A stretch of DNA of 64,000 nucleotides. Source: Rhodothermia bacterium (GTDB lineage Bacteria; Bacteroidota; Rhodothermia; Balneolales; Balneolaceae). The notes beneath the pieces are model-generated. The model did no database searches. It was given only the letters and a program-made list of their open reading frames with translations, and was not told the origin of the DNA. The stretch spans positions 620,001 through 684,000 of the forward strand of contig JAUICM010000001.1 of the NCBI GenBank assembly GCA_030427885.1, written 5' to 3'. The position numbers and the translations under genes were made by a program. Positions 50,275 through 51,856 of this stretch are shown one piece after another (position 1 is the first letter of the stretch; the number at the start of each line of letters is the position of its first letter).

Positions 50275-50454
50275 TGGATAACGACGGAGGACGGAGGCTA
50301 AGCCGGTGAAGCAGTTTTGATCCTGGATCCTTTCTTAGCTGAACCGAAGTAAGTAGCTTACTTTTCCCCATGGCATTGTAATTAATTTTCATACGTTTAT
50401 CTTATTTGACCTGCGAGCGGGTAGTAAGTCCTTACAAACTTTTTGGTGATTATA

Positions 50455-50468
50455 CGAACGAGCGTTCG
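50455..50468. promoter_or_regulatory. CGAACG-AG-CGTTCG palindrome
   Basis: Perfect 6-bp half-sites separated by 2 bp, in GC-richer DNA than its surroundings. This form is typical of operators for small dimeric repressors such as the TetR family. No regulator gene is adjacent; it could be the relic of one. Confidence 0.4.
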
Positions 50469-50478
50469 CCTAATTCCT

Positions 50479-50500
50479 AAAAAAGGGCTTCAGAAGCCCT
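50479..50500 (-). terminator. Orphan minus-strand terminator
   Basis: AGGGCTT (50484-50490), loop CAG, AAGCCCT (50494-50500), with a run of A on the left that becomes a U-run when read on the minus strand. No minus-strand gene lies to its right until 57 kb, so the gene it served may have been lost or displaced. Confidence 0.6.
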
Positions 50501-50579
50501 CAGATTGAGGTTGGTGGATATTATCCGAATTTTATCTTCCCTTTCCTGTTCCCCTAATACTATGTTATGTGGCTTATTA

Positions 50580-50798
50580 ATGAATACCCAAGTAGAAATA
50601 TTTGTACAGCTTTTAAATGAAGGCACGGAAGTCTGGAGACCAGTTAAAGCCGAATCGTTAGATAACGGCCTTTACAAGATTATTTCTGCCAACAAAAGTG
50701 ATGAAACTTGGGAGTTCAACAGTGGGGAAACAGTAAAGTGTAGCACTAAAGCTTTTGCGGAAGGTAATTCAGGGTTGGTTGCTTCTGAAAAAGCTTAG
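50580..50798 (+). CDS. Cassette 1 small SH3-like hypothetical protein
   Basis: 72 residues from ATG 50580, 15 bases after the cassette junction; the upstream frame crosses the junction and is not used. The sequence VEIFVQLLNEGTEVWRPVKA, then ETWEFNSGETVKCSTK and LVASEKA, resembles a small beta-barrel family often found as a single gene in integron cassettes and in planctomycete and proteobacterial genomes. No function is known. There is no signal peptide or membrane segment. The promoter is not obvious, as usual for cassettes. Confidence 0.72.
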   Translation: MNTQVEIFVQLLNEGTEVWRPVKAESLDNGLYKIISANKSDETWEFNSGETVKCSTKAFAEGNSGLVASEKA

Positions 50799-50803
50799 GC
50801 GCC

Positions 50804-50927
50804 ACATAACAAGCGTTTTAAGTCGGACGCAGGTAGGGTTCGCTGGAAAGCTTGTAGGCAATAAAATTATTCAGTTACTTTAACAAAAACCGAAAACCTG
50901 CGCCGCTTAAACGCCGGGTCGTTATAC
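50804..50927 (+). other. attC1
   Basis: R'' ACATAAC (50804-50810) and R' GTTATAC (50921-50927). The arms GCGTTTTAAGTCGGACGCAG and CTGCGCCGCTTAAACGC pair with three unpaired extra bases (T, T, A) on one side, matching the extrahelical bases that make attC recombination strand-specific. Length 124 bp. Confidence 0.85.
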
Positions 50928-50938
50928 AACCTTTTTCT

Positions 50939-51277
50939 ATGAATAAATATCAGGTCATGCTTAGAGGTGAAAACTTCTTACTCGATTTCGTGGATAAGGA
51001 AAAAAAGTGTGGGTTCTACACCACCATTTGGGTCGAGGCGAATGATCCTGAAGAAGCAGAATTGAACGCCGTTGCCAAAGTAAAAGAACAAAAAGATTTA
51101 AGTAATGGTCTTTTAAATGATTCTGATGATCCGCCAATGATTTATCTTGAGGAAATCCATCAATTAGAATCTGATGAAGAATTACAAAAAAATAGTGGAA
51201 GAACCTTTTTTGTAGAAACTGACGATAAAGAAGTTAAATACTATATTAGAAAACGCTGGTGGCAGTTTTGGAAATAA
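50939..51277 (+). CDS. Cassette 2 hypothetical protein
   Basis: 112 residues starting 18 bases after the junction. NKYQVMLRGENFLLDFVDKE, GFYTTIWVEANDPEEAELNA, DDPPMIYLEEIHQLE and a Trp-rich basic end (YYIRKRWWQFWK). This arrangement (GENFLL, GFYTT-VEA-PEEAE, PPMIYLEEI) is a recurrent cassette-encoded family in integrons of Gammaproteobacteria, of unknown function; recollection, not a search. It has no signal peptide. Two Trp-rich turns at the C-terminus suggest membrane-surface or partner contacts. Confidence 0.72.
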   Translation: MNKYQVMLRGENFLLDFVDKEKKCGFYTTIWVEANDPEEAELNAVAKVKEQKDLSNGLLNDSDDPPMIYLEEIHQLESDEELQKNSGRTFFVETDDKEVKYYIRKRWWQFWK

Positions 51278-51284
51278 TCCGGTT

Positions 51285-51410
51285 GTATAACAAGCGTTTT
51301 AAGTCGGACTCGGGTAGTGGCTCCGCATAATTTAATTTTAGCTAAATAATAAATTTGGTTACTTCAACAAAAACTGAGACCTGCGCTGCTTAAAAGCGGG
51401 GTCGTTATGC
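51285..51410 (+). other. attC2
   Basis: R'' GTATAAC (51285-51291), R' GTTATGC (51404-51410), 126 bp. It shares CAAGCGTTTTAAGTCGGAC with attC1 on the left and GGGTCGTTAT on the right, while the central spacer differs. The two sites belong to one attC family. Confidence 0.85.
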
Positions 51411-51425
51411 GGTTTACAAAACTAA

Positions 51426-51803
51426 ATGAGCAAGAAATCAGAAAATATCAGCTTCGTCCATTCCTTTTTGAATAATAGAGAAGTTTTCTTTGGAGCTATT
51501 TCTGATTATGGGATTTTCAAAAAAGATGAATTTCATAAATACACCAAGGCAATCAGTGAATTAAATGAAACCGAGCTATCAGTTGATGAAAGGTATAAGA
51601 TCGCAATTACAATTTGGGAAGTGAGTTTTAAAATAGAAAGGTTTTTAGGTTCCCATTTTGCCTCAGATGTACCTTGGTCTTTTGAAAATTTGGATGAAGA
51701 CGATCCAAGACAAATAGGTGAACTGATTTTCTACACAGCCAATTGGTTTTCATACAATAAGCCAATGGAAAAGGATCATCTTACAATAGGGTCTTGGAAA
51801 TAG
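51426..51803 (+). CDS. Cassette 3 protein, possible immunity-protein-like
   Basis: 125 residues, starting 21 bases after the junction. FVHSFLNNREVFFGAISDYG, YKIAITIWEVSFKIERFLGS, and HFASDVPWSFENLDEDDP. The layout (aromatic N-terminus, a central amphipathic helix, then HF..D...ENLDEDD) weakly resembles the Imm41 immunity family of polymorphic-toxin systems. No toxin gene is adjacent. The resemblance is from memory and needs a profile search. No signal peptide, so it is cytoplasmic. Confidence 0.6.
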   Translation: MSKKSENISFVHSFLNNREVFFGAISDYGIFKKDEFHKYTKAISELNETELSVDERYKIAITIWEVSFKIERFLGSHFASDVPWSFENLDEDDPRQIGELIFYTANWFSYNKPMEKDHLTIGSWK

Positions 51804-51817
51804 AAATATCCTTAACC

Positions 51818-51856
51818 TCATAGCAAACGTTTCAAGCGGACGCCGGGGCGTTATAG
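51818..51856 (+). other. attC3, collapsed site
   Basis: Starts as a degenerate left arm (CATAGCAAACGTTTCAAGCG, parallel to CATAACAAGCGTTTTAAG of attC1) and runs directly into the right-end pattern GGGGCGTTATAG. About 85 bp of spacer and arm present in its siblings is missing. It would probably not fold into a functional attC. Confidence 0.7.

Follow-up and report, generated by a model that had tools for sequence, protein, structure and literature searches.

The array of three gene cassettes in the window (the whole 64-kb stretch of DNA that was analysed) is very probably the relic of an integron whose intI gene has been deleted, and not a set of cassettes captured at an arbitrary site. What remains at the locus is the beginning of intI (seven codons), the leader between intI and attI, the core of attI, and three cassettes, two of them complete and one with a broken attC; the remainder of intI has gone.

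The cassettes and their attC sites

Cassette 1 (50565-50921, plus strand) contains an ORF at 50580-50798 encoding 72 amino acids, cassette 2 (50922-51404, plus strand) an ORF at 50939-51277 encoding 112 amino acids, and cassette 3 (51405-51850, plus strand) an ORF at 51426-51803 encoding 125 amino acids. Comparison of the three proteins with Pfam, NCBIfam, PHROGs and PADLOC assigned no family to any of them, and the cassette 1 protein has no close homologue among 91 other genomes of the family, where one weak match of 35% identity was found. A sequence-only reading of this DNA that preceded our analysis had described the same three short co-oriented genes and the junction cores GTTATGT (50564), GTTATAC (50921), GTTATGC (51404) and GTTATAG (51850), all of which lie where that reading had put them.

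The whole 64-kb window was searched with an attC covariance model (R1) trained on 29 attCs from other loci of the genome, the window sequence being excluded from training. The model recognised complete attCs on the plus strand at both positions where the sequence-only reading had predicted them, attC1 (50804-50927, 124 bp) with 131.7 bits (E 1.5e-27) and attC2 (51285-51410, 126 bp) with 79.8 bits (E 6.4e-16). The palindrome supposed to follow the third gene is, however, a truncated attC (attC3, 51818-51856, plus strand; 21.9 bits, E 0.0062) that has kept its left half and mostly lost its right half: the middle of the model, 86 positions long, has collapsed to one base, and R'' is TCATAGC where GCATAAC would be expected, with mismatches at 2 of 7 positions. 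The R'' sequences of attC1 (ACATAAC) and attC2 (GTATAAC) are the exact reverse complements of the preceding cores, as had been claimed, and the same rule is obeyed exactly in 21 of 25 adjacent attC pairs across the genome, whereas 2000 shuffles averaged 2.9 such pairs and never exceeded 9. Folding of the bottom strands bore out the expected stability for attC1 (z -3.5) but not for attC2, which is not significantly stable (z -0.8). An Rfam scan gave chance matches only and no attC-like family, and a scan for sigma-70 promoters and terminators found nothing exceeding shuffles.

With an attC at the 3' end as the mark of a gene cassette, two of the three cassettes are complete and the third is truncated, and the array, with two or more attC sites and no intI in its vicinity, falls under the definition of a CALIN. 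Judged by their sequences, the window ORFs belong to genuine integron cassettes that carry attC sites; cassettes 1 and 2 should remain excisable, and cassette 3 is probably locked in place because its own attC is broken. The last attC is truncated or degenerate in nearly every array, that of the resident integron included. Since excision is open to a last cassette whose attC works, arrays should come to end in a locked cassette, and the near-universal broken last attC could reflect survivorship: terminal cassettes that have an intact attC would sooner or later be excised and lost.

attI, leader and intI start upstream of the array

What lies ahead of the first cassette? An attI site (50516-50567, plus strand) leads directly into it, with the core L box CTAATAC at 50554-50560, the spacer TAT and cleavage at G50564^TT, and the 17 bases ahead of the first core (GTTCCCCTAATACTATG) match sites at other arrays. 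A model of seven other attI sites of the genome, the window being left out (R2), was searched against the whole genome and ranked its seven training sites first and the window site next, as the best non-training match (28 bits, E 7.1e-6). A weight matrix of the attI core built from the same seven sites gave the window attI a score of 25.2, the background beginning at 6.9; tested on relatives, it gave 13.7-26.4 at array starts outside its training, and the next value among 3393 GTTR positions was 6.9. All 17-mers in the genome with no more than one mismatch to the attI core consensus are found at cassette starts, and by our own estimate chance would supply about 0.1 of them, so the attI-core sites are not drawn from random DNA. 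On these sequence scores an attI adjacent to the first cassette, as in a complete integron, is present at the window locus. Its core is well preserved, and the site should still accept cassettes.

The other defining part of a complete integron, an intact intI, is reduced here to seven codons (50351-50371, minus strand) that encode MGKSKLL, identical in protein sequence to the start of the intact IntI of this genome; past codon 7 the reading frame enters unrelated sequence. The motif M.KSKLL occurs 9 times in the 637,428 translated residues of the loci examined, and in every instance it marks the start of an intI next to an attI leader. The distance from the intI remnant to the end of the attI core is 199 nt, and 212-225 nt in intact integrons. 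Between remnant and attI lies the leader (50372-50515, plus strand), which aligns with the leaders of relatives G038 (C3a), G003 and G017 and of the C10 locus of the same genome above all 200 shuffles, those of G038 C3a and G003 being the closest. An nhmmer search with the leaders of relatives gave its best window match at 50395-50482, a weak one (E 0.06). Against the leader of the resident integron the alignment score was 13.0, not above the shuffle maximum of 17. There are at least two types of leader common to several genera: the resident type resembles those of G016 C8 and G003 474k, and the window type those of G038, G003 and G017. The seven codons of window and resident intI agree at only 14 of 21 nucleotides and yet are identical in protein sequence, which points to long divergence under protein-level constraint. 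Taken together, the leaders that cannot be aligned and the codon divergence indicate that the window locus is a separate, long-diverged integron and no fresh copy of the resident one.

The leader also contains a 21-nt imperfect palindrome (50440-50483), which includes GAACGAGCGTTC. Comparable palindromes occur in other leaders, and the one in the window may serve as an operator or as an accessory site for IntI, or may form a hairpin. For a Gram-positive-type LexA box (GAAC-N4-GTTC), as in the leader, no exact copy was found at the loci around the two lexA-like genes, and for an SOS-operator reading of the leader box both lexA-like genes score below the cut-off. None of the features left of 50564, attI, leader or intI start codons, figured in the sequence-only reading.

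The resident integron and other attI-led loci

The array had been called integrase-less, and no integrase is indeed encoded beside it, but the genome is not without one. A single intact intI is present on contig C5 (C5:529082-530026), and its product scores 436.6 bits against TIGR02249 (cut-off 265) and aligns over its whole length with IntI4 (PDB 2a3v; residues 4-319), the extra middle segment included. The resident array of 15 attCs begins next to this intI. The same attC family is found on C10, C8 and C3 and at two further places on C5, with 34 model matches in the genome, and at least nine attI-led loci carry cassettes, the resident one included. In addition, an attI match at C12:248270 (L198) heads one gene, with no attC found. 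At C3:117 the attI match has the core GTTAGCC. This is the reverse complement of R'' in the first attC of an array that begins where contig C8 ends, and because of this complementarity the C3 and C8 contig ends probably belong together. A tblastn search for intI remnants near the satellite arrays of the genome found none; the seven codons of the window are too short for tblastn.

The C8 array includes a cassette (L041:941-1446) with a Phd/YefM antitoxin and YoeB-like toxin pair, preceded by a cassette encoding a GNAT acetyltransferase; such toxin-antitoxin pairs are usual stabilisers of large chromosomal arrays. Two dispersed intergenic repeat families adjoin several satellite attI sites upstream (L045, L043, L042, L044), and both families are also found elsewhere without attI. 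A 280-aa tyrosine recombinase encoded at C2:198521-199336 resembles TIGR02249 in its two terminal parts (116 and 100 bits) and is without the middle segment (model positions 180-239).

Relatives and the graded truncation of intI

Arrays led by attI were also seen in the related genomes G016, G021, G003 and G038. For several arrays in G016, G021, G038, G042 and G017, the stretch searched contained no attI, in some cases because the first cassette or a contig end was not resolved. Most arrays with a resolved start are, by sequence comparison, headed by attI, and some keep the intI start. No intI was found in G038 at E 1e-80, and its satellite arrays nevertheless persist, which implies that an integrase acting in trans is unneeded for survival over some time.

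In G017, the length of intI is graded: full length at C54, 200 codons at C74, about 33-35 codons at C5 and C77, and nine codons at C70 and C88, with similar leaders and attI sites beside it wherever these could be read. The different leader types and the graded truncation fit a history of repeated intI gain and loss in which attI arrays would have been left behind. Some breakpoints nearly coincide, after codon 9 at the two G017 loci with different flanks (C70 L203 and C88 L206) and after codon 7 in the window. The G017 C88 locus further encodes a full-length tyrosine recombinase (L206:862-1695), 33% identical to IntI, in reverse orientation directly after attI. In G007, an attI-like site at C1:239841 (L200) is followed by a single gene and a broken attC, with no intI and no attC matches in that genome.

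Conservation of the same three genes at this locus in relatives, which the sequence-only reading had named as evidence against itself, was not seen, and no relative found shares the locus. A search for an empty site by way of the flanking aldehyde dehydrogenase and DUF2200 proteins found no relative with both adjacent; homologues of the flanking proteins in the searched genome contigs reach about 60% identity at best. The closest named homologue of a flanking gene comes from Fodinibius roseus (60%), which would place the host probably within the Balneolaceae. Neither an empty site nor a close relative at the window locus was encountered among the relatives found.

Probable origin of the array and proposed movement of cassettes

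In the account of the window locus that we favour, this lineage would have carried several integrons over time, all but one of them may have lost intI by deletion, and attI would have stayed behind together with its array, perhaps owing to an ability of the one surviving IntI to work on attI arrays in trans. Among the points against a relic, the intI remnant is just 21 bp long, and the leader is matched weakly by nhmmer and cannot be aligned with the resident leader of its own genome.

Could the leader, attI and intI start instead be a mobile unit, or one copied again and again, from which new array sites are seeded, and not the leftovers from the deletion of whole integrons? The recurrence of truncation after codon 7 in the window and codon 9 at the two G017 loci would suit such a unit, as would the upstream dispersed repeats common to the satellite leaders C3 and C5:568 and to C8:26.8k and C5:324k. 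However, the other breakpoints differ (about 33-35 codons, 200 codons, full length, within the leader), neither a transposase nor terminal repeats came to light, and the absence of attI from other copies of the repeats also speaks against it. We consider a mobile unit unlikely. The sequence-only reading had proposed capture of cassettes at sites unrelated to a resident integron, and the corresponding explanation, in which IntI inserted cassettes of the resident integron into a non-integron genomic site (attG), finds some encouragement in the presence of a resident intI and of a shared attC family, and in the insertion at attG sites in E. coli cited in PMC12444791. An attG target should lack attI and an integron leader, whereas the first core in the window is directly preceded by an attI homologue, by a leader and by the first codons of intI, and the confinement of attI-core 17-mers to cassette starts, against the 0.1 expected by chance, makes the same point; we consider capture at an attG very unlikely, and the earlier proposal with it. 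That the array is a recent duplication or translocation of the resident C5 integron, as the same genome, the same attC family and the 93% identity of attC1 to one resident attC might suggest, is scarcely credible in view of the resident leader that does not align above shuffles, the seven codons that differ in DNA, and the closest leaders being those of G038 C3a and G003.

The nearest neighbour of an attC does not lie in its own array significantly more often than expected (11 of 32, 8.9 expected, P 0.28). Since the window and resident leaders have diverged beyond detection, whereas their attCs share up to 93% identity and attCs show no grouping by array, the attC sequences suggest that cassettes moved between loci after these had separated, plausibly by the action of the resident IntI in trans. 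Mixing of attCs before the loss of intI, or import of cassettes from elsewhere, could also account for the pattern. A wider and distinctly more tentative proposal, possible but to our minds on the doubtful side, is that of a distributed integron, in which one IntI would serve about nine chromosomal attI platforms with their own short arrays, cassettes would be captured, swapped and expressed at many positions, and the arrangement would be common in several genera of the family.

Comparison with known integron systems

To our knowledge no general model of attI exists, and because of this one can seldom tell easily whether a CALIN arose by decay or by capture at a new site. In this lineage attI is recognisable, and the origin of its arrays becomes readable; should these attI sites still be in use, many cassette platforms would be served by a single integrase.

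CALINs have been "proposed to be degraded integrons", and attC clusters without integrase made up about half of the integron-type elements counted there, 2961 of 6077 (PMC9024848). The window array is like them in its two complete attCs, few cassettes and lack of an adjacent intI, and differs in that its attI is still recognisable and that a leader and the intI start codons survive, which makes its origin readable; the genome differs in its roughly nine attI-led loci with one intI. Xanthomonas genomes have several CALINs besides the resident locus, which resemble the present case in that several arrays with no integrase lie apart from the resident integron and the lineages have ancestral integrons; in the portion of that report available to us, their fixed positions are given, and no attI or intI start at the CALINs (PMC12444791). 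Insertion at attG, as cited in PMC12444791, likewise places cassettes outside the main array, but the site in the window is an attI homologue with an integron leader and not an arbitrary target. The Delta-attI cassettes of mobile integrons also provide extra attI-type sites used by an integron integrase (PMC12901181); there the attI fragments are the recombination sites of the cassettes themselves, whereas here attI heads separate arrays. A literature search of partial coverage found no paper on a genome in which a single intI accompanies numerous arrays headed by attI. Integrons in decay are familiar elements; many attI platforms together with a single intI are an unusual arrangement.
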